NCBI GenBank assembly: GCA_012033205.1
Contig: JAAUSO010000023.1
Coordinates: 1 to 57,989, forward strand
DNA: 57,989 nucleotides
Direction of reading: 5' to 3'
Source: Richelia sp. SL_2_1
GTDB taxonomy: Bacteria > Cyanobacteriota > Cyanobacteriia > Cyanobacteriales > Nostocaceae
The notes beneath the pieces are model-generated. The model was not told the origin of the DNA, searched no databases, and saw only the letters and a list, made by a program, of their open reading frames with translations. A program made the translations under genes and the position numbers. Numbering within the stretch: position 1 is the first letter of the stretch; each line of letters starts with the position of its first letter. This document shows, piece by piece, positions 1-47,162 of this stretch.

Positions 1-3000
1 ATATACCACGGTAAACAATCATTTCGGTTGTGTCGGTTAATAAAAGTATCTATGAATTGATTGCTTGCTGAATATAAACTTAATCCAAATCCTCCTAAAA
101 TAGAAGATAAAGATGAAATAACTATACAAAAATCTAAGTTTATATTCTGTAATACTTCTTCTAGTACTGAAATTTTATGGTGTTGTAATTTGAATATATT
201 TTCTAATTCAATTTTTGTAATTTCTGGAATGGAAGCAAATGTATGTTCGCGCTTTATTCCAGTTGAACAAATGACACCATTAATTTTTCCAATATTTTCA
301 GTTGCAAAGATTAGCTGCATTTGCTCATAATTAGTTTTATCTGCACGCAGTATTAAAACTTCTGTACCGTTATTCTCGAATGCTAGTAATTGTTGAATTT
401 TGCAACTTACTTCATCATCAGTAGCATGAGTTTCAAGCCATTGTAAGAAATAATCTTTTTCTGGGAATGTAGAATCCTCTATAAATATGAGTTTTGCTTG
501 AAAAGTTTTTGCTAAATACTCTGCAAGCACAACTTCAATACTTTCTAATCCACCAGAAAACAGGTAAACACCTTGTTTTTTGAAAGGTATATCGTCTTCA
601 GCTACTGATTGCAAGCTAACTGGTTCAAATGTTTGTACCCAACGATGGCGATCGCGATAAGCAATTACATCATCTGAGGATACAGAAGTTAACTCATCAA
701 AAAGTTTATCAACAATATGGCTTTCATAATATTCCTGTCTTTCCTTTGTGTCCTTTGCGTCTCTGTGGTTATTTAAATTAATATCAATACACCGACAGCT
801 AATATCAGGATACTCTTGCGGAATGACTTTACATAAGCCTAATATTGCTGCTTTCTCTGGGTCGAGTTTTTCATTACCATTAACATCTTGAATATTATTT
901 GATATAACCCAAATTTGTAAACTATTGCTAATTTTCAGCTTACTAAGGCTTTGCGTTAAAAATAATAAACTGTTGAATTCTAAATAGTTACCTAGTTGAT
1001 TTGTTTCATCTTGACTTACGCTCCATAAATAAGCAATATGTTCTGGGTTATGGTCTAATGATACTAATTCTTTAAGCAATATATCATAGTCTTCACCTAT
1101 CAATGGATTAATTGTATAAATATCTTCACTTAATTTGCTAAACTGTTCTTCTTTTTGAACAGTAATGATCTTTTTATTTTGATTTTTAAATACTTCAACT
1201 AATTGCTTGCCTATTCCCAAATCATCAATAAAAAACAGCCATTTTTCTGATTTTGATTCTATTTGAGTGGAGGATGTTCCTGCTAGTAAAGAGCGTTTCC
1301 ATGAAGGCACATAAAAGCAGTCAGCAATATCTTGTTTATTATCTAATGTGGTTATTTTTTGATTTATAGAAGGGGAAGGGGATTTGGCATCAATCCAATA
1401 TCTTTGTCTTTCAAAAGGATAAGTTGGTAAAGGAATGCGATGACGACGCTCCTGGGTATAAAATCCCGACCAATCTATTTCTACACCTCCGAGCCACAAC
1501 CGACCTAATGTTTGTAATAAAAACTTAACATCTGAAGAATTCTCTTTGACATGGCGTAAGGAACTTAATACCTGTTGTTTAGCATCTTTTTCTAAATGCT
1601 GTCTCGTCAACGTGCTTAAAGTTCTTCCCGGTCCCACCTCCAGAAAAACACCTTCAAACTGCTGTAATAACTGCGATATTCCATCCGAGAATCTCACAGT
1701 TTGTCGTAAATGTTGGCACCAGTAATCCGGATTTGTCGCTTGTTGTTCGCTAATCCAATCACCAGTTACGTTGGAAATAAAGCGTAACTTTGGCGAATTC
1801 AGTTTAACTTTTTTGATAACCTCAAGAAATGCTTCTAAGATGGGTTCCATCATCTGGGAATGGAAAGCATGAGACGTATGCAACAGCCGACATTCAACTT
1901 CTTGAGAAGATAATTGCTTTTCTAGGGCTGCAACTGCTTCATTAGTTCCTGATACTACACAAGATTCGGGGCTGTTAACTACTGCAATTTGTAAGGATTG
2001 TTGATACAACTGATTTCCATCAAGGAGCAGTTGTATATCTTTTTCTGGAAGCTTGATTACCAGCATACTTCCTGTGGATACTTGTTGCATCAATTGCCCT
2101 CTTCTTGCCACAATTTTTAAAGCATCTTCTAAAGAGAACACACCTGCAATTGTTGCGGCAACATATTCCCCAATACTATGACCAATCATTGCTTCTGGAC
2201 GCACTCCCCAAGACATTAGTAACTGAGCCAAGGCATATTCTGTAACAAATAATGCAGGTTGAGTCAGAGATGTTTGTTGGAGTTGATTTGAAGCAATTTC
2301 AATCTCTGCTTGTTTGGGGTAAAGTAAAGAACGGATATCAAGACCAAGGTGTGGTTGTAAAATTTCAGCACAGATATCTACGTGTTCTTTAAATATCGGT
2401 TCTACTTCATACAGTTCCTTCCCCATGTTTGCATATTGTGAGCCTTGTCCCGAAAACATGAAGATAACTTGAGTATGACCTGGCTTACAGTGGCGACTCA
2501 AAATACGTTGTGGGTCTTGGCTGTGAAGCGATTTCACCGCATCATCTAGGTCTTGACAAATTACTACGCGGCGATAGTCAAAATCTCGGCGACCAACTTG
2601 TAAGGTATAAGCTACATCAGGTAGAGTAATATCGGGGTTTTGCTCTAAATAATCGCCCAGTTGTACTGTCAGAGTGTCTAAAGTTGTGCTGGTTTTGGTT
2701 GATAAGAGTAATAATTGGTAAGGACGGGAAGGACTCGAAGCTTCGATGGTTGGAGCTTCTTCTAAGATTACATGGGCATTAGTCCCACCAATACCAAAAG
2801 AACTTACACCTGCTCTGCGGGGTGTACCGTTAGTTTTCCATTCTGATAACTTATTGTTAACGTAGAAGGGACTATTGGCGAAATCTATCTGGGGATTTGG
2901 TTCTTGAAAGTGCAAACTCGGAGGTATTTGTTTATGTTTTAGTGCTAGTACAGTTTTAATTAATCCTGTTACCCCCGCTGCTGTATTCAAATGTCCGATA

Positions 3001-4080
3001 TTGGTTTTGACTGATCCGATCGCGCAAAAGCCTTTTTTATCTGTACTGGCACGGAAGGCTTGTGTAAGAGCTGTGATTTCAATCGGGTCTCCTAAAGGAG
3101 TTCCTGTTCCATGTGCTTCAATATAATTGATGGTTTCTGGTTCAACCCCAGCTAAAGCTAGCGCTTCTAAAATCACTTCTCTTTGACCATCAACACTGGG
3201 AGCGGTGTATCCAACCTTTAAAGAACCATCATTATTGATAGCTGAAGCTTTGATTACTGCATGAATACAGTCACCATCCGCAACAGCGTCTTCTAATCGC
3301 TTCAAGACCACAACACCCAAACCGCTGCCGAAAATAGTTCCTTGAGCTTGAGCATCAAAGGCTCGGCAATGTCCGTCAGGAGAATTAATCCCTCCTTCAG
3401 TATACAAATAACCAGTTTTTTGGGGAACTTGTATCGAAACACCACCTGCAAGTGCAATATCGCTTTCGCCATTTAATAAACTTTGGCAGGCTAAGTGGAC
3501 TGCAACTAGTGATGTAGAACAAGTGGTCTGAACATTTATACTCGGTCCTTTAAGATTTAACTTATAAGAAATCTGTGTAGGTAGATGGTCTTTATCATTG
3601 CCAATAAAAATTTGGAATGTATCGGCTGATTTTATAAAATCATGATTGGGATATAAATTTGATAATAAGTAATTACTAACAGTAGTACCAGCAAAAAGAC
3701 CTATTTGACCAGTGTAAGTTTCCGAATCATAACCAGCATTTTCTAAAGCTTCCCAAACACATTCTATGAAAATCCGGTGTTGTGGATCTGTAATTTCTGC
3801 CTCTCTAGGGGTGAAGCCAAAAAATGAAGCATCAAATAGCGCTGTATCTTCTAATATAGTACCTGCTTTTACATATTTAGGGTCTTTCAGTGATGCTGGG
3901 TCTACTGGTGTAGATGCTAATTCTTCATCAGTAAAAAAACAAATTGACTCTACGCCATTTTGCAAGTTTCGCCAAAATATATCGATGTTATTGGCATCAG
4001 GAAAACGACCGGACATACCGATGATAGCAATTTCATCTTTATCATTAAAGTTATTAACTAAATTATTTTTTATTTTCCAT
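1..4080 (-). CDS. Type I PKS module KS-AT-degenerate KR (3' end outside window)
   Basis: This is the last visible subunit of the assembly line and it continues past the left edge. In order it has a ketosynthase (about residues 10-430; active-site VQTTCSTSL near 187, EAHGTGT and KTNIGHL downstream), an acyltransferase (GHSIGEY near 637; HAFHS, the malonyl-type motif) and a ketoreductase-like region from about 1150. The KR nucleotide motif reads SGGLESIE instead of TGGxGxxG, so it is probably inactive. The frame is open from the window edge to about 4014. The only good start, an ATG at 4080 with AAGGA upstream, is in another frame: it meets a stop after five codons unless the T6 run at 4066-4071 gains one base. 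That points to an indel there. It lies 85 nt after the NRPS gene, probably in the same operon. Domains are clear; the start and completeness are not. Confidence 0.88.
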
Positions 4081-4165: not shown

Positions 4166-7100
4166 TTAATTAGATTTATGCTTTGCATCTCGATGATTTT
4201 GCCTCGCTTGTTTGCGACGATTCATTGAATCTGTGCGACTTTTGTTTTGAGCAGCATTTTCTCGAATAAATTGTTGCTTATCTTGTAATTTAGTTAAATA
4301 TTTGGTCAAATAGTTGATGGTTGGATATTGAAAAATATCAACTAATGAAAGTTGCTGAAATATTTTTTGCAACTTACTATGAACTTGAACCAAAAGTAAT
4401 GAATGACCGCCTAGTTCAAAGAAATTATCATGAATACCAACTTCTTCAATACGAAGAACTTCTTGCCAAATATTAGCAATCGTTTTTTCTACCTCAGTTT
4501 GAGGTGGTAGATAAACTGCTTCCAGTTCAGGGCGTACTTGGTCAGGTATAGGTAGTGCTTTGCGGTCAACTTTGCCATTAGGTGTTAATGGTAGTGCCTC
4601 TAAAGTCAGCAAAGCATTTGGAATCATGTAGTTTGGTAACTTTGATGCTAAAAATTCCCGTAATTCGGTAATTGTCAATGTTTGCTCTTTTTGAGAAACT
4701 ATATAAGCTACTATTCGTTGAGAATCTACCTTATCTTCCCTGACTAGTACTACAGCTTCTCGCACTGCTGGGTGTTGACTGACAACTGCTTCAATTTCTC
4801 CCAGTTCGATGCGAAAACCGCGAATCTTGACTTGATGGTCAATACGCCCTACAAATTCGATATTCCCATTCGGCAGCCAACGGGCTAAGTCGCCAGTCCT
4901 ATATAACCTTTCTTCTGCTCCCGTTTTAGTTTTATGCTTGTCCTTCGTAAACGGATTGGGAATAAACTTTTCCTGGGTTATCTCGGGCAGATCCAAATAC
5001 CCTTGTGCTAGTCCATCACCTCTTACATATAGCTCACCCGTAACACCTTGCGGGAGAAGACTGCCATACTTGTCCAGGATATAAATTTGTGTATTTGCAA
5101 TTGGTTTTCCAATCGGGATCGTATTTTTTTTCAAATATTCTTCTAAAACTTCTCCCATATCTGTTTTTAATTCGTCCGCCAACTGCAAAGGTATCGCTTT
5201 TTTATACTCCACAGCAGCTTCTGTATCACTTAAACCAATTCTTTGTACGGTTCCATTTTTTAGATTATCAAGTTTTTCCTTGCTTCTTGCTTCAATTTGA
5301 TTTGCAATTCTTAGTTGATCCTCAAGAACACTCTGTAAATCACGAGCAGTCGTATTAGGATTGGATAAAACAGCCCGAAATACAACTATTTCTTTTTCCT
5401 CATCATAAGAACTGTCCATCAGAATGGTCTTGGATGCAAAAGTCAGTCCTTGTTCAAACTGTTCTTTTTGTATCTGTGTATTAAGTTGATTAATTCTTTG
5501 GATATCATAGTCACTCAAAGATTTTTGTGTTGCTTTTGCTCTTAAATCTTCAGGGACATATCGATAATTAACGATATTTAAGGCTGGTTCCATTATCAGT
5601 TCAAATGGTTCTAATTGCTCAATAAGTCTGGAAAAATATTGGGCTTTCTCTATGCCATTGTTAATTAGAATCTCGTATCCCTTTTTACCGATAATATGAA
5701 GTGCCCCGTGTAAGCATAACGAAATCGCCGAGCGTGACCCCTCAATTGTGAAGCGTCCTACATCGAATGTATCTCGCTGAGCCTGGTAACGGGCCGTGGT
5801 TTCAGCAAAGTTTAACATCTGCGGGTCTTTAAACAAACAAACACTAATACCCTGGGGTAGGTATAACTGTTTATGTCCACAAATAGTTATAGAATCAGCT
5901 TTGTCAATCCCTTTCAATTTTCCTTTGTGCTTGTCGGAAAATATCGTCGCACCACCCCAAGCTGCATCCACATGAAAATGAATGCCGAATTCCTGCGCTA
6001 TATCGCCCATTTCCCATAAGGGATCGATTTCACCAGTTTCTGTTGTTCCAGCGATGCCCACAAGTGCCAGGATGTATAACTTATTTCTCTTGCATTCTAT
6101 TATTTTTTCTTTGAGCAGATTGATATCTAACTTCTCGTCATCATTACTGTCAATAAAAACAATGTTGTCTGTCCCCAAACCTAACATCGAAGCTGCTTTG
6201 TTGAGAGAGTAATGCATTAACCGAGAGCCGATGATAACGATATCGTCATACCCCTTCTTACTCAGAACCTTGTAAAGGCTTTCTGTTGCTAACTCACCAG
6301 AGTTTTCTTTACTTAATAATCCCGAATTTCGCGCACACAGCAAGGCACTGATGTTTGCTGTTGTACCGCCAGTTGTTATAATACCCAAATTTCGATTTTT
6401 TTGCTGAATATTTGACTCGTAAAATTCACCATTAAATCCATAAACAAGACGATGCAACATGGCGATCGCCTCTCTTTCCAAAAATATCAAAGACTTTGAT
6501 GTCTCAATTTTAACCAGATTTTGGTTCAATCGCGAGATCATCTTGCTCATATCGTGCATAAAATCAGGCAAAGCGGATGTCATATGCCCAATGTATGTAG
6601 GAGACCCCGTATCGATTGTATATGGAAGCACTTCTTGGGAAAATTTATCGTAATAATCGTCAACTTTTATAGGATATGAGGGCAACTCGCTCTGTTGAAA
6701 TTTTGTAGCTAGTATTTCTGGACTAATGCCAGGCTTGGTAAAAGGTTTGTGGTGAACCCCAAGAACCTGGTTTTCAGTTGCATCACGAACAACTTCTGGC
6801 TTGAAATATTGCAGTATTCTTTGACGTGTTTCCCAAAAATTGACTTCAAAGAATGTAACATCAGCAGCAACTTCACTTGAGCCGTAGAGATTGAACAATC
6901 TGGCAGAACTGAGTTTCTGGTGAAATGACTCAGCTAACCCTATTGGCAGGGCTTCGCCGCTGCAAAATACATATTTGAGATATCGAAGTTTTGTCAGTTG
7001 TTCAGGCGCATTGTCCAGAATCGCTTTGAGCAGGGATGGAACAACAACAATTCTAGTTATCTTTTTATCGCTCAACAGGCTCATTAGCCTGGAAACATCG

Positions 7101-10100
7101 CCCCGTATACTATCTGGAACCACCACCAGCGGAATTCCTTTGAGAAGGGGAGAAAATATTTCCGCAACATGATCGACAAAATTGATGGAGGTTTTTTGAA
7201 TGCAAATCTCCGAAGCCGCAAATGGTAGCGTTTCCCAGATCCAATGCAAGCGATTGACAATGCCACGAACCTTACCGAGAACCGCTTTGGGTTTTCCGGT
7301 GGAACCGGACGTATAGATTGCGTATGCCAAGTCATCGGGTGTTGTTTGAAGATTTAAATTTTCAACGCTTTCTCTAGCAATGGCATCCCTATCCCTATCT
7401 AGACAAACGATATGGGCGTTTTGAGAAGAAATCTTTTCGGACAAAGACTCCTGAGTCAACAGGGTACGCACATTAGAATTTTCTAGCATGAACGCCAATC
7501 GTTCTTGCGGATAGTTCGGATCTAACGGCACATATACGCCATTGGCTTTGAGAACAGCCAGCAAGCTCACCATCTGCTCCAAGGATGGCTCAAAACATAT
7601 TCCCACCAGCACTCCCGAACCAACTCCGAGAGACTGTAAATAATGTGCCAGTTGATTTGCCCATTGGTTCAACTGTCGATAGGTCAGTTGTTGGTTTTCA
7701 AATATCACTGCCACCGATAGGGGCGTTTTTTCTACCTGGGCTTCAAATAACTCATGAATACATAGGAGGGGATATTCAACTTCTGTATTATTCCATTCCC
7801 ACAGTAATTGATGCTGCTCAGATTCAGTTAATAGTGGTAACTCTGACAAACGCTGTTGTGGATTAGCAATAATTCCAGATAACAACGTTTGTAAATGGGC
7901 AGCCATTTTTTGTATAGAATTTTCTTCAAATAAATCAGTATTGTATTCTAAGCTTCCAACCAACCCCGACTCGGTTTCTGTCATATATAGGGTTAAATCA
8001 AACTTAGAAGTATTATTATCGCCTTCCAAGGGAGTTAAAGTTAAACCAGGCAACCCTAAAGCCGACATTGGAGCATTCTGAAGTACAAACATCACTTGAA
8101 ACAATGGTGCATAACTTAAATCTCGCTGTGGTTGTAGTCGCTCAACTAACAACTCAAAAGGCAAATCCTGATGTGCATAAGCTCCTAGTGCTACCTCTCG
8201 TACCCGTTTTAACAGTTCTTCAAAACTGGGGTTTCCTGCTAAGTTAGTTCTTAACACCAGGGTATTGACAAAAAATCCAATTAACCCTTCTATTTCCGTC
8301 CGATTACGGTTAGCAATCGGCGAACCAACCACAATATCTTCTTGCGCTGTATAACGCCATAGCAGTGTTTGGAAACCTGCTAACAGGGTCATAAATAATG
8401 TAGTTCCCTGCTGCTGACTTAACCTATTTAAAGCGGAGGATAATTCTTTTGATAATTTAAATGAATAGGTCGCACCACGGAAAGTTTGAATTGCTGGTCT
8501 TGGGTGATCTGTGGGTAATTCTAATACTTTTGGTGCGTTCTCTAATTGCTTGAGCCAATAAGATATCTGGGTTTCTAGTACTTCTCCTTGCAGCCATTGA
8601 CGTTGCCAAGCTGCGAAGTCTACATACTGTACTGGTAGTTCTGGGTAGGAGATGGGTTTTTCATTAGAGAAGTTAGAATAAAGTGAAGAAAATTCTTGTA
8701 CTAATATACCAACTGACCAACCATCAGAGACGATGTGGTGCATTGTCAGTAGTACTATGTGTTCTTGTTCATCAAGACGTAATAGTTTTACTCTTAGTAA
8801 AGAATCGCTGCTGATGTCAAAGGGTTGTTGAGCTTCTTGTGTAATAGTATGTTTAATTTCGGCTTCTTTTTGGAAAGCATTCAAGGAACTGATATCTAGT
8901 ATTGATAATCTTATGGGCTTTTGTTCCGAGATTACAGCTACTGCTTGCCCTTCTACTGAAAGGAAATTGCTTCTAAGGGCTTCATGACGGCGTACAATTT
9001 CGTTGAAGCTTCGTTCTAATGCATTGTGATTTAATTCTCCCTGTAGCCTCACAGCCGCAGGAATATTGTAGAAGGAACTATTTGGTTGCAGTTGGGCTAA
9101 AAACCACAGTCTTTGTTGAGCAAATGATAGTGGTAATTGTTGCGAACGTGAAATCCGCTCAATACTCGTCGCTTCAACTGCTGAATCTAGCTTAATTGCG
9201 TTCTCAATTTCTTTTGCTAACCCAGCTATTGTTGGTTTCTCGAATAAGCAACGTAAAGGAAGCTCTAGTTGAAATACTTGCCGGATTTGAGAAATCACAC
9301 GAGTTGCAATTAAGGAATGTCCTCCTAATTCAAAGAAGTTATTATCAATACCTACTTTTTCTATACTAAGTACTTCTGCCCAAATACCAGCTAATAAATT
9401 CTCGATTGGTGTGGAGGCAGGGACTATATTAGATGATGATACTTGTGTTAGTTCAGGTATAGGTAGTGCTTTACGGTCAACTTTACCATTAGGGGTCAAT
9501 GGTAATGCCTCCAATATGACAAAAGCCGCTGGCACTATGTAGTTCGGTAACTTTGATTCTAAAAAGTTACGTAGCTCATGAGTGACCAGTGTTTGTTCTT
9601 GAGGAACCACATAGGCGACTATTCGTTGAGAATTTGCTGAATCTTCCCTTACTACAACTACAGTTTCTCGTACTGCTGGGTATTGACTAATTACCGCCTC
9701 AATTTCTCCTAATTCGATGCGGAAGCCGCGTACTTTGACTTGGTTATCAATCCGACCAATGTATTCTATATCTCCACTGGGCAAATAGCGTGCTAAGTCC
9801 CCGGTTTTATACAGACGTGTTGCTTCTGTACTAAAGGGATTGGGGATAAATTTCTCTGCGCTCAAGTCTGGACGGTTTAAGTAACCCCTAGCTACTCCTA
9901 CACCACCAATATAAACTTCACCCGTTACACCCATCGGAACAGGTTTGAGATATTTATCAAGTATATAAATTTGAATATTGGCAATTGGTTGACCAATGGG
10001 AACTGTATTTTGGTTAGATAATTTTTCTTTTTTACACTGCCAATAAGTGACATCTACAGCAGCTTCCGTTGGACCATAAAGATTATGCAGTTGAGCATTA

Positions 10101-12483
10101 AGTCGATTGAAGAACCGTTCTTGCAGTTGGGCTGGTAAAGCCTCACCACTTGCTATTACTCGCACTAGAGATTGGCATTTTTCTAAACCTTCTGCCTCCA
10201 GAAATGCTTGCAGCATTGACGGCACAAAATGTAAAGTCGTAACTCGCTGCTTTCTAATTAGGTTGACCAGGTAGTTGGGGTCTCGATGCCCTTCTGGTTG
10301 AGCTACTACTAAACGCGCACCTGTCATCAACGTCCAGAAAAACTCCCACACGGATACGTCAAAACTGAAGGGAGTTTTTTGTAAAACAGCATCTGCTGAA
10401 GTTAATTGGTAAGTATCTTGCATCCACAATAAGCGATTGCAAATACCACTATGGCTATTCATTGCACCTTTGGGCTTACCTGTAGAACCGGAAGTGTAGA
10501 TTACGTAAGCAAGGTTATCAATTGTGGTGTTGGATGCAGGATTTTCTGTACTTTCCGAAGTGATTTGTTCCCAGTTACTATTGATGCAAATTACTTGAGC
10601 TTTATGAGAAGGTAGACTTTCTAACAAGTATTGTTGTGTTAGTAATACGCTTGGTTGGGAATCTTCTAACATATAAGCCAAGCGTTCTTGAGGATAGTTG
10701 GGGTCTAGGGGTACATATGCACCACCTGCTTTGAGGATGGCTAATAGCCCGATGACCATATCAAGGGAGCGCTCTACACAAATTCCCACCAGTACCTCTG
10801 GTCTTACTCCGTGCGATCGCAAATAGTACGCTAGTTGATTTGCTCTGTTGTTTAGTTCGTAGTAGGTTAATTGTTGGTCTTCAAATACTACTGCGATCGC
10901 ATTACTGTTTTTTCTACCTGGGCTTCAAATAATTCGTGAATACATCGAAGGGGATATTCTACTTCTGTATTATTACATTCAACAAGCAATTGACGTTTCT
11001 CTTGTTCTGTGAGTAATGATAATTCTGAAAGGTGCTGTTGTGGATTAGCAACAATTCTCTCTAGTAAATTCCGATAATGTTCCACCATTCTTGTAATGGT
11101 GTTAGTATCGAAAATATCAGTGCTATATTCTACTAATCCTGTTAGTCCTCTATCGGTTTGTGATAGGTTAAAACGTAACTCAAACTTTGCTGTACCGTTG
11201 TCAAAATTCAAGGGACTCACAGTTAAATTTGAAAGCTCTACTGGTTCCACTTGTACTTGTTGCAAATCAAATTTGACCTGAAATAGTGGTACCATTTCAC
11301 TGAGATTTCGCTCTGGTTTCAAAATATCCACCAACTTATCAAATGACAAGTCTTGATGGACATAAGCCTTAAGAGTTACTTCACGTACTCTACTTAGCAA
11401 CTGGGTAAAAATTGGGTTTCTAGATAAGTCAGTACGCAGTACTAAAGTGTTAATCAGAAAACCAATTAATCCTTCAGTTTCTACTTGGTTGCGGTTGGCA
11501 ATATCAGTTCCAACTACAACATCATTTTGATTAGTATATTTATATAATAAAACTTTAAATACTGTTAATAATAATGTAAATAACGTTATCCCTTCTTTTA
11601 CACTTAAAGTTTTCAGGGCATCTGATAGAGTTTTAGATAATTCAAAAGATTGTTTTACACCTTTATATGTTGCAATAGCTGGTCGAGGTCTATCAGTAGG
11701 AAGTTTTAAAACAGGAAGATTAGCAAGCTGCTTCTTCCAATAATTAGTCTGAACTTCCAACACTTCCCCTTGTAAATATTTCTGTTGCCAAACAGTCCAA
11801 TCTGCATATTGAATTGGTAGTTTAGAAAGTGGTATTTGCCCAGCGTTTGTGCAAGAGGTAGATTGCTTGTTGGAGAAAAACTCATAAAGGACTTTCATTT
11901 CTCGAACAAATATCCCCAAAGACCAACGGTCAGATATTATGTGATGCATTGTTAATAACAGCACATATTCTGTTTCTGCCAGCTTTAGAAGGCTTATCCG
12001 CAGTAATGGTTTAGTAAGGTCAAACGGTTTTTCAGCTTCTTTAGAAGCTAACATTTGAAGCTCTTCATGTCTATTAGGTACCTCCTTCAAGTCTACTATT
12101 GGTAATTTTAATGGCTGAGAAGGAGCAATTACCTGAATCGGTATTCCCTCTGAATTGGTAGTAAAAGTTGTTCGTAAACTTTCATGTCTCCCGACAATTT
12201 CAGTAAATACCTTTCCCAGCAGTTCTATGCTTAGATTACCTTCAATTCGTAAAGCGCTAAAAATATTGTAAGCACTGTTATTAGGGTTTAATTGCTGGAA
12301 AAACCATAATCTTTGTTGAGCAAAAGATAAAGGTATTTCGCTAAAATCTTGTCTTTTTTTAATTTCTATTTTAGATATTTCTTGTGTTCTTTCTTTATTC
12401 AATCTTTTCTGTTTAAGATACTTCTCAAATACCATCCGCTGTTCTGGAGACAGAGCGGCTATTTGTCGTTCAAAATCATTCAT
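4166..12483 (-). CDS. NRPS C-A(Ser)-PCP-C-A(beta-Ala)-PCP with PanP-type decarboxylase inside the second A domain; frameshifted
   Basis: Two-module NRPS of about 2770 residues. Module 1 has a C domain (HHIISDRW near 182; the usual G of HHxxxDG is R), an A domain whose read-off code DVWHISLVDK is serine-like, and a PCP (LGGHSL near 1053). Module 2 has a C domain (HHIVSDGW near 1251), an A domain interrupted between motifs A5 and A6 by a whole PLP decarboxylase (about 1880-2453), and a PCP (LGGHSL near 2695). It ends in a basic tail rich in Arg, Lys and Gln that may dock to the next PKS. The second A domain reads VDAVFSLADK, close to the beta-alanine code. The frame breaks at about 10901-10906, where one base is missing after EKT beside a HIP1 site; both halves are otherwise open. 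The start ATG at 12483 lies 54 nt after the monooxygenase gene. Confidence 0.9.
5125..6845 (-). other. Embedded PLP-dependent aspartate 1-decarboxylase (PanP family) domain
   Basis: This stretch lies inside the NRPS reading frame with no stop at either junction. It codes for a complete group II PLP decarboxylase of the PanP type. Visible marks are the TGGTTANISAL phosphate-binding region, HVDAAWGGAT with the aspartate that pairs with the pyridine nitrogen, and the PLP lysine in GHKQLYLPQG (near nt 5870). PanP-like signatures are IGHMTSALP, LNQNLVKIETSK and YRYVPEDLRA. PanP enzymes convert aspartate to beta-alanine, in place of the pyruvoyl enzyme PanD. The insert begins just after the A5 motif NLYGSSEVAADVT and ends just before IPIGKPIANTQIYIL, which leads into A6. 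Family assignment is from recognised sequence; the substrate is inferred from family and context. A glutamate- or other acid-specific relative is possible. Confidence 0.9.
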
Positions 12484-12537: not shown

Positions 12538-13609
12538 CTAACCCGAAAACGCTACTTCTTCTTCTTTTTTCCGATTACACATATTCTTTAAATCTTTCAG
12601 ATGAGGTAAACTCGCCATTACAGCTTCAAAATTATCATTAAAGTCAATCAAACAAGCGACTTCATCAACACCAGCTTTCTGTAGGCGCTCAACCATTTGC
12701 ATACAAGTTGTTTTTGAGCCAATTAAGGTTCTTCCTTTTAACCAACCTTCATAGGCAAACCGTAACAGGCTATTGATATCTGCTTCTGTAAATTTCTTTA
12801 AATCTACTTTAAGTCCAGCATCTCTTGCTAAACTTTCCAGTAGATTGATGTGAGTTTTCAAATAATTATAAAAAGGTTCCCTTGCCGCTTCTTTTACTTT
12901 ATCAAAATCTTCTCCTATAAACGTATGTATCATCATTGCCACTTTCCCTGCTTTAGGATCGTAACCATTTTGTTGTAAAGATTGGCGATATAGCAATATC
13001 TGTGGAGCAACTTCTTCTAAGGTTCCTCCTAATAGAGAAGTCAATACATTAGCACCAATTTTACCAGCTTCAATATAGGTGGCTGAAGATTGACATACAA
13101 CCCAAGTTGGCAGTTTAGATTGTATAGGTCGTGGAAAAGTTCTTACCTCAAAAGTTTTTCCAGTAGCATCTTTGAGTTCAACTTGTTCTCCTTCCCAAAG
13201 CTTTTGCACTGTCTGAATACCCTTCCACATTGTTTGTTTGCGGTTGGCATAGCTTTCGGTAGAAAGTACAAAGTCATCCATCGTCCAACCTGATGCAAAA
13301 CCAAGAGCAACTCTACCATTGAAAATTATCAACTACAGACCATTCTTCAGCTACTCGTGCGGGGTTATGAAGTGGCATGACAAGACTGCCAGCCCGTAAT
13401 TGAATTTGCTTGGTAATCATTGCCAATGCTGTACTAGTTAAGCACGGGTTTGGATAAAGTCCTCCAAACGGGTGAAAATGCCTTTCTGGAGTCCAAAGGG
13501 CAGAAAAATCATTCTGATCCGCAAATTTTGCACTTTCTGTTAGTAACTTATATTTGTTGTTATTAACTTTTGAACCATCTCCAGAAAAATAAAATAGGCT
13601 AAATTCCAT
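12538..13609 (-). CDS. Luciferase-like flavin monooxygenase of NRPS/PKS type, frameshifted
   Basis: Stand-alone bacterial-luciferase-like (LLM) monooxygenase of about 357 residues, of the subgroup found in natural-product clusters. N-terminal motifs include FALWTPERHFHPFGGLYPNP-like sequence (here SALWTPERHFHPFGGLYPNP), TSTALAMITKQIQLRAGS and VAEEWSVVDN; the C-terminal part continues with GRVALGFASGWTMDDFVLS. The frame breaks after VVDN at about 13322-13327. Two bases appear to be missing (or one gained) before NGRVALGFASGW, so two open halves remain. Such enzymes use FMNH2 and O2 to oxidise a carrier-bound or free intermediate; the exact reaction here is unknown. It sits between PKS and NRPS genes on the same strand, so it is likely a tailoring enzyme of this line. 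Confidence 0.85.
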
Positions 13610-18414: not shown

Positions 18415-21400
18415 TTATTTAATTCCCTTGCTAATTTTTAAAAATTGTTTGATTCGAGCTTTACCATCTTTTAATTGTTGAGTCCGTGCTTCAGCTCGAT
18501 CAAAATTTGTTAAATCATCGTTATTTACTCGACCAATGAACTCAGCCAAGGAACTGATGGTTGGGTACCTAAATAGTTCGATTATTGTCAAATCTTTCTG
18601 GCATATTTTACGCAGTTGGCTATGAACCTGAACCATTAATAAAGAATGTCCACCAAGCTCAAAGAAGTTATCATGAATGCCAACCTTTTGGACTTTGAGC
18701 GCCTTCTGCCAAATTGTAGCGATAGATTTTTCCAAATCATTTTGAGGTTTAATGTAGGTTGTTTCTAACTCTCGACGAAGATTATCTATTTTAGGCAGTG
18801 CTTGGCGATTTAGCTTACCGTTAGGCGTTAATGGCAAAGCCTTTACTGGTATAAAAGCAGCAGGTATCATATAATCAGGCAGCTTTGCTTTTAAGAAGCT
18901 CCGTAATTCACTGGGTTTAGGAGCTAATTTTTCTTCTGAGACTAAATAAGCTATTAGCTGTTTCTCCCCAGGTACGTTCTCCCTTACTACTATTATAGTT
19001 TCTCTAATAGTGGGATATTGAGTTAATTGTGTCTCAATCTCTCCAATTTCAATCCGGAAACCACGAATTTTTACTTGGTGGTCGATGCGACCAATGTACT
19101 CTATTTCTCCACTTGCAAGGTAGCGGGCTAAATCCCCTGTTTTGTAGAGACATGCTGCTGGTTTGTCGCTAAAGGGATTAGGAATAAATTTTTCAGCAGT
19201 TAGCTTAGGACGGTTTAAATAGCCTCGTGCTAGTTGCTCACTACTTATATATATTTCGCCGAGTACGCTTATGGGAACAGGTTGCTTGTTCACATCTAGT
19301 ATATATATCTGGGTGTTAGCAATTGGACGACCAATTAAGACAGATGTAGATAAGGGCGCTTGTGGAGTAACACTGTAGCAAGTAACATCCGCAGATACCT
19401 CTGATGAACCGTAAAGGTTTAACAAAGTACTATCTGGCAAACTTTGTCGAAATTGCACGAGGAGGTCATGAAACAGCGCTTCACCACTGCTAATCCACAA
19501 CTTTAACTTGGGTAAGTGTAACTGTAGGGCATGATTTCTATTTAATAATATACGTAGTAATGAAGGAACAAGTACTAATCGTGTCACATTGTTGCAAGCA
19601 AGATTAGTGACAAATTTTTGTGGGTCTTTGATAACTGAATCGGGCACAATTACTGTGGTTATTCCTTTAAGTAAAGAACCAAAAATTTCCCATACTGAAT
19701 CAACAAAGTTTAGGGATGTTTTCTGGCAACAAATTTCTTCTTCTTTGAAAGGGTAATTTTGCCACATCCATTGGCAACGATTGATAACACCTTTGTGCAA
19801 ACCAAGAACTCCCTTTGGTTGTCCTGTAGAACCGGAAGTATAGATTACGTAAGCAAGGTTATCAATTGTGGTATTGGATGCAGGATTTTCTGTGCTTTTA
19901 TCGATGATTTGTTCCCAACCACTATCAATGCAAATTACTTGAGCTTTGTGAAAAGATAGACTTTCTAATAAGTATTGTTGTGTTAGCAAGACGCTTGGTT
20001 GGGAGTCTTCTAACATATAAGCCAAGCGTTCTGTTGGATAGCTAGGGTCTAGGGGTACATATGCACCACCTGCTTTAAGGATGGCTAATAGTCCGATAAC
20101 CATATCAAGCGAGCGCTCTACACAAATTCCCACCAAAACCTCTGGTTTTACTCCCAACGAGCGCAAATAATGGGCTAGTTGATTTGCTTTGGAGTTTAGT
20201 TCGTCATAAGTTAATTGTTGGTCTTCAAAAATTACTGCCACCGATAGGGGCGTTTTTTCTACCTGGGCTTCAAATAACTCATGAATACATAGAAGGGGAT
20301 ATTCAGCTTTTGTATTATTCCACTCCCGTAGTAATTGATGCTGCTCAGATTCTGTTAATAGTGGTAACTCTGATAAACGTTGTTGTGGATTAGCAACAAT
20401 TCCAGATAACAACGTTTGTAGATGACTCACCATTCTTTGTATCGTATTTTTCTCAAATAAATCAGTATTGTATTCTAAGCTTCCAACCAACCCCGACTCG
20501 GTTTCTGTCATATATAGGGTTAAATCAAACTTAGAAGTATCATTATCGCCTTCCAAGGGAGTTAAAGTTAAACCAGGCAACTCTAAAGCCGACATTGGAG
20601 CATTCTGAAGTACAAACATCACTTGAAACAGTGGCGCATGACTTAAATCTCGCTGTGGTTGTAGTCGCTCAACTAACAATTCAAAAGGCAAATCCTGATG
20701 TGCATAAGCTCCTAGTGCTACCTCTCGTACCCGTTTTAATAGTTCTTCAAAACTGGGGTTTCCTGCTAAGTTAGTTCTCAACACCAGGGTATTGACAAAA
20801 AATCCAATTAATCCCTCAAGTTCTGCTCGATTACGGTTAGCAATTGGCGAACCAACTACAATATCTTCTTGGGCTGTGTAACGATATAGCAATGTTTGGA
20901 AGCCTGCCAACAAAGTCATAAATAAAGTAGTTCCCTGCTGCTGACTCAATTTATTAAGTTTTGCAGATAATTCTGTTGATAACTTAAATGAATAAGTTGC
21001 ACCCCGGAAAGTCTGTATTTTCGGTCTAGGATAATCTGTAGGTAATTCTAATACTTTTGGTGCGTTCTCTAATTGCTTGAGCCAATAAGATATTTGGTTT
21101 TCAAGTACTTCTCCTTGCAGCCATTGTCGTTGCCAAGCTGCAAAATCTACATACTGTACTGGTAGTTCTGGGTAGGAGATGGGTTCTTCATTACAGAAGT
21201 TAGAATAAAATGAAGAAAATTCTTCTACTAATACACCAACTGACCAACCATCAGAAACGATGTGGTGCATTGTCACTAAGATAATATGTTCTTGCTCGCC
21301 CAAACGCAATAGTTTTACTCTTAGTAAACAATCGCTGCTGATGTCAAAGGGTTTTTGTGCTTCTCGTGCAATTTGTTGTTGGAATTCTGCTTGTTGGTTT

Positions 21401-36114: not shown

Positions 36115-38901
36115 GTGAAATTAGATCAATTGCTTCAAAGTCTGCTACTGACAAGCGCGGTTATTTTTTTTATTAGTACTCCTACTAAAGCTGAGGAGAT
36201 ACAAAAAGATGGAATTAGTAAATATTCTGTTGATAGTGTAGGGAAATCTAGTAATGCTAAGAAGGTTGCAGGTACCAAATCTCCCGTACTAGTTAGCAAT
36301 TCCCGAAAACCCCGAACTTTGCAACCATCAACAGCAAGTTCTGTGGATAAGGCAAATCTACATGAAGCAGGTAAAAATATTCTCCAACTGAGTGAGATCA
36401 AATTTCCTTCTACTAGCGCTCGGATGTTGGTACAAACACCAACAAATTCTCCAAACCCAGAATCTACAAGCGGGGAGCAACAAATTGTACTAATTACCGG
36501 AGTAAAAGCCAATCCTACAGATAAAGGCTTGGAAGTAATTTTACAAACATCTCAAGCAAGAGAGTTACAAGTAGTAAATCGCAGCAGTGGTAATAATTTT
36601 ATCGCCGATATTCCCAACGCTCAATTACAGCAAGCAAACGGAGATGCATTCAAATTTAGTTCAGAAAAACCTCTAGAGGGAATTACTGAAATCACAGTAA
36701 CTAATTTAGATGCGAATACTGTCAGAATAACCGCAACTGGTCAGACAGCATTACCCAAGGTAGAATTATTTGATAGCGGACAAGGTTTGATTTTTGGGTT
36801 GGCTGATGCTGTTTCCACAGCACAAAAACCAGAAGCGACATTAACGCAACCAGAAGTTGATAAGCCCGCAAGTGAAACTCCGTCAACAAAACCATCGCAG
36901 GAAGATGAAACTATTGAGTTGCTTGTAACGGGGGAACGAAATGGATATAGAGTCCCGAATGCGACCACTGCAACCCGGACGGATACGCCGTTAAAAAATA
37001 TTCCCCAATCAATTCAAGTAGTGCCGCAAGAAGTATTAAAAGACCAGCGAGCGACTAGTCCTGCTGAAGCTTTGCAAAACGTGGCTGGTGTTTCACCAGG
37101 AGGTATATCACCTCGTACAACCTTCAATAATTTTTTCATTCGAGGCTTTGATGCTTCCGACAACGTTTTAGTTAATGGATTAAGAGACAATACGAATCAA
37201 GCCGCCAATGTTTTCTCAAATATTGAACGAGTTGAAGTTCTCAAAGGACCAGCGTCCGTTCTATTTGGTCAAGGTACCATTGGAGGAACAGTAAACTATG
37301 TTACCAAGCAACCGCTATCTCAACCTTCTTACTCAGTGGAAGGTTCGGTGGGGAGTTTTAACTTATACGGCGGTGCAATTGACCTTTCAAGTCCTCTTAA
37401 CGAGGATAAAAGCGTACTGTATCGCTTGAATGCCTCTGCTGAAACGAATGAAAGCTTTGTTGATTTTTATGAGCGACAGCGATACCAGATTGCTCCCGTT
37501 TTATCTTGGAAAATAGATGACCGCACAAATCTGACTTTAGAAGCAGACTATTCTCAACTAAATGCCAGATACGACTTTGGTATACCCGCAGAAGGAAGTG
37601 TATTACCCAATCCCAATGGTGAAATAGAACGCGATCGCTTTGTTGGTGAACCTGATATCGATAATAACGAAAGTAAGGTATTTAGAATTAGTTACAATCT
37701 TGAACATCGCTTTAACGACAGTTGGAAGTTAAGGAGTGCTTTGCGGACATCCTTTCTAAATTTGGATCGAGAGATTGTTTTTCCTAGAGCTTTAGCTGAC
37801 GATAAGCGTACACTTAACAGAGGCTATGACAAACAAGATTATCAAGATAATGTCTACAACCTCGATAATTACGTGGTTGGGGAATTCGCAACTGGTAATA
37901 TTCAACATAAGTTAGTAGCAGGATTTAATTTATATCGTCAAGATACTAACCTCACAGATACAGGATTTGTTATTGCGCCACTGGATGTTTTTAACCCAGT
38001 GTATGGTAGTTCTCCAACAGATGTGAGTATATTCGAGTTTGATATTGAAAACAGAACCCAAGTACTAGGTATTTATATACAAGACCAAATTTCCTTCGGA
38101 GATAAATTTAAAGTTCTTTTAGGGGGACGCTTTGATACTGCAAGTCAAGACTTTAAAGATGCCTCTGATGGAACGGAAGATTTTAAACAATACGATGCGT
38201 TTAGTCCCCGTATCGGCATAGTGTATCAACCTATCGAACCAATATCGCTTTATGCGAGCTACAATCGTTCCTTTCAACAAACAACATCTGTATTTAGTGG
38301 TGCTTTAGCTGAACCAGAACGCGGAAGTCAATATGAAGTAGGTGTCAAAGCGGACTTAAATGATAGACTATCGGCAACGCTTGCATATTACAACTTAACT
38401 CGCTCCAATGTAGAAACCAGCGACCCTAACAACCCAGCGTTAACTATTCAAGTTGGGGAACAGCGAAGCCGAGGGATTGAGTTTGATATTTCTGGTGAAA
38501 TTTCGCCGGGATGGAAAGTAATTGCTGGCTATGCCTATACTAATGCAGAAGTCACTGAAGATAATGATTTTGAAGTTGGCAATCAACTAAATAACATACC
38601 AAAAAATGCCTTCAATATTTGGACAACTTATGAGATTCAATCCGGAGATTTGCGTGGGTTGGGCTTTGGTTTAGGACTATTTTACTTTAGCGAACGTCCA
38701 GGAGACTTAGCCAACACATTTGATTTGCCCGGTTATACGCGCACTGATGCTGCTATATTCTATAAACGAGATAATTTTCGCGCAGCTCTTAATTTCCGTA
38801 ATCTCTTCGACATTGATTATTTTGTATCTGCCCAAAACCGCAACCGCGTATTTCCTGGCGAACCATTGACAGTAGTAGGAAGTATTTCCTGGGAGTTTTA
38901 A
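36115..38901 (+). CDS. TonB-dependent siderophore receptor with N-terminal AMIN domain
   Basis: Outer-membrane receptor of 928 residues that imports ferric siderophores with energy from TonB. The protein starts with a signal peptide (about 1-26) and a low-complexity linker. An AMIN domain follows (about 125-230), as is typical of cyanobacterial receptors. Next come a TonB-box-like segment (ETIELLVTGE, about 265), the plug (NIPQSIQVVPQEVL to GGTVNYVTKQP, about 295-400) and a 22-strand-type barrel ending in Phe (SISWEF). The GTG start has GAGGG a few bases upstream. It is divergent from the NRPS/PKS operon and followed by a ferric-siderophore binding protein. It is therefore the likely uptake receptor for the product of the cluster. 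Confidence 0.95.
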   Translation: MKLDQLLQSLLLTSAVIFFISTPTKAEEIQKDGISKYSVDSVGKSSNAKKVAGTKSPVLVSNSRKPRTLQPSTASSVDKANLHEAGKNILQLSEIKFPSTSARMLVQTPTNSPNPESTSGEQQIVLITGVKANPTDKGLEVILQTSQARELQVVNRSSGNNFIADIPNAQLQQANGDAFKFSSEKPLEGITEITVTNLDANTVRITATGQTALPKVELFDSGQGLIFGLADAVSTAQKPEATLTQPEVDKPASETPSTKPSQEDETIELLVTGERNGYRVPNATTATRTDTPLKNIPQSIQVVPQEVLKDQRATSPAEALQNVAGVSPGGISPRTTFNNFFIRGFDASDNVLVNGLRDNTNQAANVFSNIERVEVLKGPASVLFGQGTIGGTVNYVTKQPLSQPSYSVEGSVGSFNLYGGAIDLSSPLNEDKSVLYRLNASAETNESFVDFYERQRYQIAPVLSWKIDDRTNLTLEADYSQLNARYDFGIPAEGSVLPNPNGEIERDRFVGEPDIDNNESKVFRISYNLEHRFNDSWKLRSALRTSFLNLDREIVFPRALADDKRTLNRGYDKQDYQDNVYNLDNYVVGEFATGNIQHKLVAGFNLYRQDTNLTDTGFVIAPLDVFNPVYGSSPTDVSIFEFDIENRTQVLGIYIQDQISFGDKFKVLLGGRFDTASQDFKDASDGTEDFKQYDAFSPRIGIVYQPIEPISLYASYNRSFQQTTSVFSGALAEPERGSQYEVGVKADLNDRLSATLAYYNLTRSNVETSDPNNPALTIQVGEQRSRGIEFDISGEISPGWKVIAGYAYTNAEVTEDNDFEVGNQLNNIPKNAFNIWTTYEIQSGDLRGLGFGLGLFYFSERPGDLANTFDLPGYTRTDAAIFYKRDNFRAALNFRNLFDIDYFVSAQNRNRVFPGEPLTVVGSISWEF

Positions 38902-39000
38902 ACAAATTTGTCTTCTTCGGATACACTTTTATACTTACAGATAAAAGTGTGTGTCGTATTCCCTTTTATAATTTTAGAATTGTCCTTGTATCATGCATTC

Positions 39001-39966
39001 ATGAAAATATATTTACGTCGTTTTACCTGTTTATTACTATTAGGAATTTTAACGTTTGTAATTTCTTCAGCTTGTAGCATAAATGTTGACCGTGGTGTTA
39101 CAAACTCGAAACAGTCAACAGAAGATTGCCGAGTCGTACAGCACATGATGGGAAAAACCTGTATCCCTAGAAATCCTCAGCGAGTAATAACCCTTAGACC
39201 AGAGCATCTAGCTAATAGTTTGGCATTAAGTATTGAGCCTGTTGCATCTGCTTTTATAGAAGACTTTCCCTTTCCAAAGGATATTCAAAGTAAAGTGGAT
39301 AAAATAGAATCTGTTGGAGATTTAAATAACCCAAATCTAGAAAAGATTTTGCGACTCAATCCAGATTTAATTATTTCTAACTCTAGACTAAAAGGTATTT
39401 ACAAACAGCTATCTCAAATTGCACCCACGGTTGTATTAAACATACCTTTTCCTCCTCCTTCCTGGAAAGAACAATTAACAAGTTTAGCTCAAATTTTGGA
39501 GAAAGAAGATGTTAGTCAGCAATTAATAGATGACTACTGGCAACGAGTTGAAAAACTCAAGCAAGCTTTAGGCTCCCGTCGCAACCAAATAGAGGTGTCT
39601 GTTGCTAATACATCTTCAGAACACGGAATTTGGGTATATGGAGAAAAGCATTATGTTGGAGAAGTTTTGAGCGATATTGGATTACAACGTCCCTCTGCAC
39701 AAAAAGGTGATTTTTTTTATATAGAAAATATCTCTAAAGAAAAAATGTCGGACATTGATGGAGATGTTCTTTTCTTTGTAACTTTTGGTAGAAAACAGGA
39801 TAAAGAGACATTAAATAAGCTTATAAATAATCCTTTGTGGCAAAAACTCCAAGTTGTTCAAAATAAGCAGGTGTATTTTGTAGATGGATATTGGCATGAT
39901 GCAGGAAGCATTTCCGCGATTAATGCCATTCTTGATGACTTATTTAAATATCTGGTCAATACTTGA
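39001..39966 (+). CDS. Ferric-siderophore ABC transporter substrate-binding lipoprotein (FecB/FhuD type)
   Basis: Periplasmic binding lipoprotein of 321 residues. I chose the ATG at 39001 over upstream TTG codons because it begins a proper lipoprotein signal (MKIYLRRFTCLLLLGIL..., lipobox ending SSAC). The mature part has PRNPQRVITLRPEHLANSLA-like sequence, LEKILRLNPDLII and a C-terminal LWQKLQVVQNKQVYFVDGYW-like block, typical of type III iron-siderophore binding proteins. It lies 99 nt after the receptor on the same strand and would pass the ligand to an inner-membrane permease. No permease or ATPase gene is in the window. Confidence 0.9.
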   Translation: MKIYLRRFTCLLLLGILTFVISSACSINVDRGVTNSKQSTEDCRVVQHMMGKTCIPRNPQRVITLRPEHLANSLALSIEPVASAFIEDFPFPKDIQSKVDKIESVGDLNNPNLEKILRLNPDLIISNSRLKGIYKQLSQIAPTVVLNIPFPPPSWKEQLTSLAQILEKEDVSQQLIDDYWQRVEKLKQALGSRRNQIEVSVANTSSEHGIWVYGEKHYVGEVLSDIGLQRPSAQKGDFFYIENISKEKMSDIDGDVLFFVTFGRKQDKETLNKLINNPLWQKLQVVQNKQVYFVDGYWHDAGSISAINAILDDLFKYLVNT

Positions 39967-40899: not shown

Positions 40900-42042
40900 A
40901 TGTTACCTGAATTTTACCAAAATCACTTGAAAAGTCAATTAACTCTCGCTGAATATATTTTTCTAAAAATTTTGCTTAATCTTTTACAGTCGATTAAAAA
41001 AGTTAATTTAGAAAAGTTAGCGAATGCTCTACCATTGCCTATAAAATTTGAAAGTAGAAGAAAAAGAATACAAAGGTTTTTATCATTACCGAATCTAACA
41101 ATTGAAAAAGTTTGGTTCCCAATAATTGAAGAAGTATTAAAAAAATATTTTATTCATGAAAAAGTAATTTACTTAGCTATTGATAGAACTAATTGGTGCC
41201 GAATAAATTTATTTATGGTTAGTATTATTTGGGATAAAAGAGCATTTCCAATATACTTCAGACTATTACCAAAGTTAGGAAGTAGTAACATTACCGAACA
41301 AAAAGGTATTATTGAAAAAATTATCCCTCTTTTTAAAAATTATAAAATATGTGTTTTAGGAGATAGAGAGTTTTGCTCTGTAAAATTAGCAAAGTATCTC
41401 CAGGGACTAGATGTATATTTTTGTTTACGTCTAAAAAAGAATGAATTTGTTGAATACCAAAAAGATGTTTGGCTAGAATTAAATCATTTAGGATTAGTTC
41501 CCGGAGTATCCTTTTTTCTCAAGGGAGTTAAAGTTACAAAGACTGGTGGTTTTGTGGGCTTTAATGTTGCCGGTAAATGGAAGCGTAAAGTTAATGGAAT
41601 AGCACCAAAAGAAGCATGGTTTATTTTAACTAATTTTGATAGTCTAGAATCTGCTATTTCAGCTTATAAGAGAAGATTTGATATTGAAGAGATGTTTAGA
41701 GATTTTAAAAAAGGTGGTTATAATTTGGAAGACACGAATGTTAAAGGTGAACGGTTTATTTCTCTAGTTTTATTAATCGCAATTGCTTATACTTCTGCAA
41801 CTATTGGAGGTCAGCAAATTAAACGTAAAGGGATACAAAAATATATCGCTCGTGTTAAAGAATATAACCGTTTAGAGCGAAGATATAGCAGTTTTTATGT
41901 TGGTTTATATGGTTATAACTGGGTAATTTTTAAGGATAATTGTATAGATTTGGTTGTAGAATTAATGAGATTAAATCCTAGCAAACGAGATTATTACCGA
42001 CAAGGTATTAATGCTATGAAGCTTATAGAATCTACGTTTTAA
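40900..42042 (+). CDS. IS4-type DDE transposase
   Basis: Intact transposase of 380 residues. The catalytic triad can be read as D in YLAIDRTNW, D in VLGDREF and E in RFDIEEMFRDFKKGG. The last block is the YREK-like region of IS4 transposases (Y-RR-IEEMFRDFK). The start ATG follows a small inverted repeat GCGAC-TTTGG-GTCGC at about 40880-40894, which may be part of the element's left end. The right end lies between the stop and about 42060, where it abuts and truncates the helicase gene. Exact inverted ends could not be fixed. Confidence 0.9.
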   Translation: MLPEFYQNHLKSQLTLAEYIFLKILLNLLQSIKKVNLEKLANALPLPIKFESRRKRIQRFLSLPNLTIEKVWFPIIEEVLKKYFIHEKVIYLAIDRTNWCRINLFMVSIIWDKRAFPIYFRLLPKLGSSNITEQKGIIEKIIPLFKNYKICVLGDREFCSVKLAKYLQGLDVYFCLRLKKNEFVEYQKDVWLELNHLGLVPGVSFFLKGVKVTKTGGFVGFNVAGKWKRKVNGIAPKEAWFILTNFDSLESAISAYKRRFDIEEMFRDFKKGGYNLEDTNVKGERFISLVLLIAIAYTSATIGGQQIKRKGIQKYIARVKEYNRLERRYSSFYVGLYGYNWVIFKDNCIDLVVELMRLNPSKRDYYRQGINAMKLIESTF

Positions 42043-42059
42043 TCGGTATCGTCGCCCCT

Positions 42060-44147: not shown

Positions 44148-44191
44148 CCAGGACCATGCTTTTCTAAAAGGAGGACTGATTTCTTGGTTAG

Positions 44192-44296
44192 TCCTCGTGT
44201 CAGTAAAAATGGGGGTAAAATGGGGGTAAGAGAGTGTGAAAAGGGTGAAAGTACTGTGTTTAGGTGGTTGAAGTCAGACTGAAAATCCTCGTGTCA
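44192..44296 (+). repeat. 11-bp direct repeat TCCTCGTGTCA, possible att core
   Basis: TCCTCGTGTCA occurs at 44192-44202, at the edge of the helicase remnant, and again at 44286-44296 inside a tRNA-like 3' fragment. An integrase gene starts 190 nt further on. Repeated tRNA 3' sequence beside an integrase is the usual look of an attachment site. Confidence 0.45.
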
Positions 44297-44320
44297 CCAG
44301 TTCAAGTCTGGTTCCTGGCA
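44262..44320 (+). tRNA. tRNA 3'-half-like fragment (putative integrase attachment site)
   Basis: The end of this stretch folds as a T arm (ACCAG-TTCAAGT-CTGGT) followed by TCCTGGCA, like the 3' strand of an acceptor stem with discriminator A. Upstream is a GACTGAAAATC segment resembling an anticodon loop. No matching 5' half (GCCAGGA) with a D arm was found, so this is a fragment, not a working tRNA. It lies just upstream of a tyrosine integrase. Confidence 0.45.
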
Positions 44321-44488
44321 TTACTAAAAATTCGATGTTCTTGCTTGTCGGGTAAGGGTTTCGGAGGATGACTTAAATAAGGTGTAACCAAATTATTGGG
44401 TATGTTTAGGTCGATTTGGATAAAAAAATGGTGTAAAGATGGTGTAATCCTTGTGTACACTAGAAGGTAGATTACACCTTCTTAACTC

Positions 44489-45691: not shown

Positions 45692-45882
45692 ATAGTTTTA
45701 TGAATTCTACAGCCATATTATCCGAAATGATAATGTGGTGAAAAGCCTGTAATGCAAGGATTATAGCTATTCAAAATATGATATGTGTGTTTATCCACCA
45801 GTAGGAACATTCCCGACAAATCCGCATTGTTCGCAATTGAAAGCGAACTCATATTGAGTCGAATTTTTGCAAAATTAAACTG

Positions 45883-46678: not shown

Positions 46679-46709
46679 AGATTACATAGAGTTAGTTAAC
46701 TTTTATATT

Positions 46710-46732
46710 ATATACGGCAATTTGCCGTATAT
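46710..46732. promoter_or_regulatory. Palindromic operator of the toxin-antitoxin operon
   Basis: Perfect inverted repeat with 11-bp arms (ATATACGGCAA and its complement) around one central base. It lies just upstream of the antitoxin start in an AT-rich promoter region. Ribbon-helix-helix antitoxins bind such palindromes for autoregulation; binding here is inferred. Confidence 0.7.
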
Positions 46733-46960
46733 TTGTAAATTTTGAATTTGGTGGGAGCATAATGCGATCGGTGATTTTAAGCGAGTTTATTAATCGCACA
46801 ACCAGATTATCTAATTTAACTTGTTTTTTAGGTGGTATATACCTTCACGCTGATAGGTTTTGCTACGTCTAGCTTTTAGCATGACAGATATTATTAGTTA
46901 CACGCCGGGTTTCATAGTCAGCTGTCGCGATCAAAGCGCCAGCTTCGCGGGCGATCGCCA

Positions 46961-47140: not shown

Positions 47141-47162
47141 GCATTTAATTTGTATTTGACTA

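Follow-up and report, generated by a model that had tools for sequence, protein, structure and literature searches.

A PanP-like PLP decarboxylase embedded in an adenylation domain of a cyanobacterial NRPS, with a probable role in β-alanine supply

Architecture of the interrupted adenylation domain

Here we analyse a 57,989-nucleotide stretch of DNA from Richelia sp. SL_2_1 (hereafter referred to as the window), which is an entire contig of a cyanobacterial draft genome and carries a cluster of NRPS and PKS genes (Table 1). One NRPS open reading frame, encoding 2,218 amino acids, runs without a stop from motif A5 of an adenylation (A) domain (NLYGSSE, amino acids (aa) 1311–1317, positions 6892–6872) through a PLP decarboxylase and back into the A domain. 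The decarboxylase is marked by the motifs HVDAAWGG (aa 1617–1624) and GHKQLY (aa 1649–1654). The A domain resumes at TIPIGKPI (aa 1901–1908, positions 5122–5099), shortly ahead of A6 proper (GELYVRGDGLAQGYL, aa 1929–1943), and its remainder runs on to A10. Core motifs A3, A5, A6, A7, A8, A9 and A10 are all present and flank the insert on both sides, with about 565 residues of foreign sequence between A5 and TIPIGKPI. On sequence comparison, uninterrupted A domains proved to have no more than a short loop here, which places the insert at about aa 1328–1893. The sequence-only reading of the window had put the insert at positions 5125–6845, in one frame from A5 through the decarboxylase to A6, in agreement with these boundaries. 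The ends of the decarboxylase itself were set by the extent of the DNA similarity that separate close relatives have in common.

Table 1 Features of the window around the interrupted A domain
Feature	Position	Strand	Remarks
Next module, PKS KS-AT-KR	3..4016	-	leaves the contig; Plectonema counterpart 90% identical
NRPS gene, A-PCP-C-A[decarboxylase]A-PCP	4166..10822	-	start of first A domain missing at frame break
PCP of interrupted module (FFELGGHS)	4307..4495	-	approximate
Interrupted A domain, C-terminal part (aa 1894–2090)	4553..5143	-	TIPIGKPI to NGKVDRK
Fast-evolving linker 3' of decarboxylase (aa 1847–1893)	5144..5284	-	about 47 residues
Embedded PanP-like PLP decarboxylase (about aa 1334–1846)	5285..6823	-	ends approximate
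Lys1651, PLP-binding lysine (GHK)	5870..5872	-	by alignment
Interrupted A domain, N-terminal part (aa 1018–1327)	6842..7771	-	YTSGSTGKPKA to NLYGSSE; code VDAVFSLAD
Condensation domain of interrupted module (aa 561–1007)	7802..9142	-	
Luciferase-like monooxygenase gene	12538..13332	-	syntenic marker common to G134 and G370
Second, uninterrupted A domain	18736..20295	-	code VDWVISLAD
TonB-dependent receptor with AMIN domain	36115..38901	+	
Periplasmic binding protein (Peripla_BP_2)	38908..39966	+	

Profile searches of the whole protein gave the same picture. The Pfam AMP-binding model, proposed earlier as a check on the split domain, matched in three stretches, Pyridoxal_deC matched aa 1396–1755 (E 5.9e-48), and the NCBIfam A-domain model TIGR01733 also matched. 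An AlphaFold2 model built from 80 alignment rows (mean pLDDT 73, pTM 0.49) replaced a first model from 27 rows, which was set aside at a mean pLDDT of 55. Using Foldseek, both A halves aligned across the insert with the A domain 4d56 (1,060 columns, TM 0.88 by target length, r.m.s.d. 7.6). Structure prediction, also suggested earlier, thus recovered the fit of the A halves but did not fix the position of the decarboxylase relative to the A domain: at a pTM of 0.49 the domain arrangement, including decarboxylase placement, is uncertain. The 50 Foldseek matches listed were all adenylation enzymes or NRPS chains, and the decarboxylase fold therefore rests on sequence matches. PLP enzymes of the fold-type-I kind are dimers or tetramers, according to published work (PMC3870968), and the interrupted module thus probably dimerizes.

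Beyond the NRPS and PKS genes, the window carries a TonB-dependent receptor and a periplasmic binding protein, which also accompany the clusters in Acaryochloris, Cyanothece BG0011 and the genomes G134 and G324. Given these genes and the TauD dioxygenases, a metallophore is the likely product of several of these clusters. In Mastigocoleus, one NRPS protein (L062:5850-11423) has a C-terminal TauD dioxygenase domain after its second condensation domain. Compared with relatives in G134, G303 and G370, the NRPS and PKS genes of the window are broken in frame near positions 10906, 18165 and 28870, between the C and first A domains and inside two KS domains; these breaks reflect either assembly error or decay. 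Positions 40900–55017, which hold a transposase, three integrase-family genes, a C5 cytosine methylase and a DnaB-like helicase, resemble a mobile region next to the cluster.

Family, active site and selection of the decarboxylase

Sequence matches of the embedded enzyme point to GAD-type decarboxylases. PanP is the best decarboxylase family match (44–48% identity to canonical cyanobacterial PanP), and in an alignment with GAD65 the PLP lysine, the HVDAAWGG motif and the arginine in FRxVxSNP all line up. The PanP model TIGR03799 matched aa 1372–1839 of the whole protein with 524 bits and the excised domain with 528.7 bits, under the cut-off of 606.1 that the canonical cyanobacterial sequences L010 (640.6) and L011 (629.1) pass. 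The match spans model positions 54–522, leaving the first 53 unmatched (the first 36 in Mastigocoleus). By this cut-off the embedded decarboxylase is no PanP equivalog, and aspartate is its presumed substrate. The initial description of the domain as an aspartate 1-decarboxylase is therefore borne out as to PanP likeness and the retained active site, but not by the curated cut-off (529 against 606 bits). Canonical PanP also differs in being a separate protein, whereas the enzyme in the window is embedded.

Lys1651 is invariant in all sequences compared (8 fused, 2 separate close relatives and 21 canonical). Among 475 compared columns, 120 are invariant both in the group of the embedded enzyme and in the 21 canonical PanP sequences, including H1617, D1619, K1651 and R1816. 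Another 28 columns are fixed in canonical PanP and fixed, or nearly so, for a different residue here, seven of them within aa 1673–1691; these changes could reflect an altered substrate. Over five overlapping pairs, dN/dS was 0.07–0.16 for the decarboxylase, 0.06–0.24 for the A halves and 0.49–1.39 for the linker. The embedded decarboxylase is under purifying selection. A relic or mere structural spacer might be suspected from the three frame breaks elsewhere in the cluster, which suggest decay or assembly error, and from a related copy in genome G175 that sits among numerous broken frames. The low dN/dS in all five pairs and the 120 positions kept jointly with canonical PanP, the PLP lysine among them, make this explanation very improbable.

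Recurrence of the fusion and separate-gene counterparts

It became apparent from the database scans that the arrangement is not confined to this contig. A contig scan returned seven loci with relatives of the insert, and in all seven the decarboxylase is fused in a single frame: Plectonema cf. radiosum LEGE 06105, Mastigocoleus testarum BC008, an Acaryochloris metagenome-assembled genome (MAG), Hyella patelloides LEGE 07179, a Moorena MAG, Cyanothece BG0011 and strain SU3. Of 388 whole genomes drawn from the same order, seven (the window's own included) carry the class at 75% identity or above, five of them fused and two separate. The five fused cases include Hyella, BG0011 and SU3 again, together with G175, whose A domain has a frame break in its second half. 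Sampling 386 genomes across the phylum added no carrier apart from the window's own genome, and the viral contigs contained no relative. Altogether there are nine distinct fused loci, window included, eight of which are in unbroken frame; the database search for further A–PanP–A fusions proposed in the sequence-only reading thus yielded eight more cyanobacterial loci, seven of them unbroken. An A domain with an internal decarboxylase, repeated in eight other loci, is far beyond chance. As the window belongs to a draft genome of 359 contigs, a separate gene could in principle have been assembled into the NRPS gene by mistake. Identical junctions in seven other unbroken loci from other assemblies refute such a chimera, for which we see practically no chance. 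The A–decarboxylase–A arrangement is genuine and recurrent in cyanobacteria, and is probably functional.

The surroundings of the fusion vary. Downstream of the interrupted module lies a PKS gene in the window, Plectonema and Mastigocoleus, and NRPS modules in Acaryochloris, BG0011, SU3 and Hyella. The C domain upstream of it shares 86–95% identity with that of the window in Plectonema and Mastigocoleus; for the other five named loci, the nearest window C domain is 47–59% identical. The fused cassette therefore occurs in differently built assembly lines. The G175 cluster (L042, G175:C96:1-20000) contains many short broken frames in its NRPS and PKS genes and is either decaying or an error-rich assembly.

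The two separate close relatives, 73–75% identical to the insert (L040:1637-3256 in G322 and L041:2029-3723 in G293), both adjoin a glycerol-3-phosphate dehydrogenase gene. At the DNA level, the similarity of these two to BG0011 and SU3 is restricted to the decarboxylase. In the tree, the fused rows and these two relatives form one clade against canonical PanP (support 100/100), within which G322 and G293 group with BG0011 and SU3 (91/100). Taken at face value, this grouping would mean release from the synthetase or a second insertion, but the data do not reject a clade uniting every fused row (p 0.315).

A PLP domain inside an A domain had been described before, contrary to the implication of the sequence-only reading that PLP decarboxylases are absent from interrupted A domains. 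JamL, the jamaicamide synthetase subunit of Lyngbya majuscula (UniProt Q6E7J8), is given the domain order KS-AT-ADH-KR-CP-C-HxxPF-A-PLP4-A-CP, with the fold-type-I PLP domain ‘embedded within the adenylation domain’ and its precise function then unclarified, in Milano et al. (2013, PMC3870968). Like JamL, for which the published domain order is our basis of comparison, the window protein belongs to a cyanobacterial NRPS/PKS system and has a Pyridoxal_deC domain enclosed by a single A domain in the same reading frame. Unlike JamL, it ends in C-A-PCP and is followed by a separate PKS. Published A-domain inserts (methyltransferase, ketoreductase, oxidase) lie mostly between A8 and A9 and also between A2 and A3 or A4 and A5, and the inserted methyltransferases act on the loaded substrate (PMC11355689, PMC8097286). 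The present insert likewise adds an auxiliary enzyme, but it sits between A5 and A6 and would act before activation. A decarboxylase inside an A domain was thus known from JamL, the one published example that turned up in searches of the open-licence literature; the present analysis adds the conserved family, its pocket code and its separate-gene counterpart.

Pocket code and probable function in β-alanine supply

The pocket code of the interrupted A domains, read against the uninterrupted neighbour domain (itself read against GrsA), is VDAVFSLAD in eight of the nine loci and VDAVFSFAD in G175. It agrees at seven of nine positions with VDWVISLAD, the code of that neighbour, which we take to be a β-alanine code; the two differences are W239A and I299F. 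Text searches of the open-licence literature found no paper containing the string VDWVISLAD. The window's genome has no separate PanP (the sole other match scores 21 bits), and the neighbour A domain at 18736–20295 may therefore draw on the embedded enzyme.

With the neighbour A domain as query, 148 genomes were searched and the best match was fetched for 30. The VDW code is present in 14 of these 30 A domains, and all 14 genomes carry a PanP-class enzyme (13 separate, that of the window fused). None of the 16 genomes without the code has the PanP class, two giving only distant matches of about 30%. In all 13 genomes found in both searches, the separate PanP gene lies 559–736 bp downstream of an A-domain match on the same strand, and the A domain upstream of it is of the VDW type in 11 of the 12 read (exception, G134; that of G011 was left out). 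A stricter rule, that a separate PanP gene always directly follows a VDW A domain, was rejected: G134, G303, G265, G324 and G370 carry another code there, with the VDW-type domain at a different place in the sequence read. An xDWxxSL A domain occurs at least once in each of the 11 PanP clusters that were read at length.

G134 and G370 are syntenic with the window, in the order VDWVISLAD module, PKS, luciferase-like monooxygenase, C–A module(s), separate PanP and PKS, with TonB and binding-protein genes interposed in G134. In the window, the decarboxylase lies within the protein immediately before the corresponding PKS, in its last A domain. The stretches read (18 to 60 kb) for Acaryochloris, BG0011, SU3, Hyella and Moorena showed no A domain of the VDW type, so that the interrupted A domain may be the sole such domain in those five loci. 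Modules after the PKS in Plectonema (L061:6866-10972) and Mastigocoleus (L063:7512-11633) have the code VDW(I/V)ISLAN, the latter with a thioesterase, and the PanP clusters of G134, G056, G003, G303, G265, G324 and G370 contain xDWxISLAN modules as well. PanP-like genes directly after NRPS genes are also found on plasmids of Mycetohabitans (L131:14827-16506) and Paenibacillus (L132:12287-13450), and the PanP–NRPS pairing thus extends beyond cyanobacteria. These separate panP genes, plasmid-borne or cyanobacterial, encode the same class of enzyme, in G134 and G370 with synteny to the window, but unembedded.

We consider it likely, on the strength of these sequence comparisons, that the interrupted A domain combines two activities, making β-alanine from aspartate locally and then activating it. 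The embedded PLP enzyme would strip the α-carboxyl from free L-aspartate to give β-alanine, the host A domain would adenylate the product and load the adjacent PCP, and the C domain would couple it before the PKS module takes over the chain. The benefit would be a dedicated local building block that spares the pantothenate pool. Local β-alanine supply is the best-supported function because of the pocket code, the association of separate PanP with VDW domains, the conserved active site and the purifying selection, and the earlier proposal that the megasynthase makes its own building block at the place of use gains from the same evidence. We infer that aspartate is the substrate, that β-alanine is the acid activated, that the hand-over is local and that the module dimerizes through the decarboxylase. 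Jamaicamide contains β-alanine, and in the cryptophycin pathway an aspartate-type decarboxylase supplies an NRPS A domain for a β-amino acid (CrpG / CrpD); unlike the enzyme in the window, the cryptophycin decarboxylase is a separate protein. Neither ‘decarboxylase’ nor ‘β-alanine’ appears in the main text of the papers on cyanochelin B, lusichelin and fatuamide.

Alternatively, both the enzyme and the A domain may handle a substituted β-alanine, for example 3-amino-2-methylpropionate (from 3-methylaspartate) or isoserine (from β-hydroxyaspartate). This would account for the pocket differences from VDW domains, W239A and I299F, which are constant in all nine loci, and for the near-fixed decarboxylase differences in aa 1673–1691; TauD-type dioxygenases in the BG0011 and Mastigocoleus clusters and A domains with the code KIGH(I/V)G, which we take to be of the Asp type, in Mastigocoleus, BG0011 and SU3 point the same way. 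The pocket, however, agrees with the VDW domain at the seven remaining positions, and a Pfam scan of 19 window proteins, out of 23 open reading frames of at least 150 aa, matched no mutase or TauD family. We regard a substituted substrate as unlikely. Decarboxylation on the assembly line, in which aspartate would be loaded onto the PCP through its β-carboxyl and the embedded enzyme would then remove the α-carboxyl, is more doubtful still. The enzyme is covalently close to the PCP, and decarboxylation within reach of the carrier domain has been raised as a speculation for embedded PLP domains (PMC3870968). Against it, genes for the same enzyme class stand alone in clusters that have ordinary VDW A domains, and the pocket resembles that of these VDW domains rather than the Asp-type codes that other modules carry.

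The genomes were also compared for PanD. A separate PanD above cut-off is present in eight of the ten genomes searched, namely the window's own and seven of the nine others (the Moorena MAG was left out); in BG0011 the match is in two pieces. As the window's genome has this PanD, pantothenate has no need of the embedded decarboxylase. G293, which carries a separate close relative of the insert, gave no PanD match, the sole case among nine genomes of its genus. This one case is as expected if enzymes of the insert class make β-alanine.

A fuller history can be offered tentatively, with clearly less than an even chance of being right. A separate decarboxylase would have moved into the A5–A6 loop of a β-alanine A domain to form a ‘make and load’ cassette, later shuffled among assembly lines, in which the module dimerizes and hands its product over locally; in one genus it may have been released again, replacing PanD (G293).

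With nine loci, a pocket code and separate-gene clusters, two of them syntenic, the function becomes testable, as does the question of whether embedding an enzyme in the A domain of its customer changes flux. The A5–A6 loop thus appears to provide a natural insertion site, and the insert a natural cassette, for β-amino acid supply within the synthetase.
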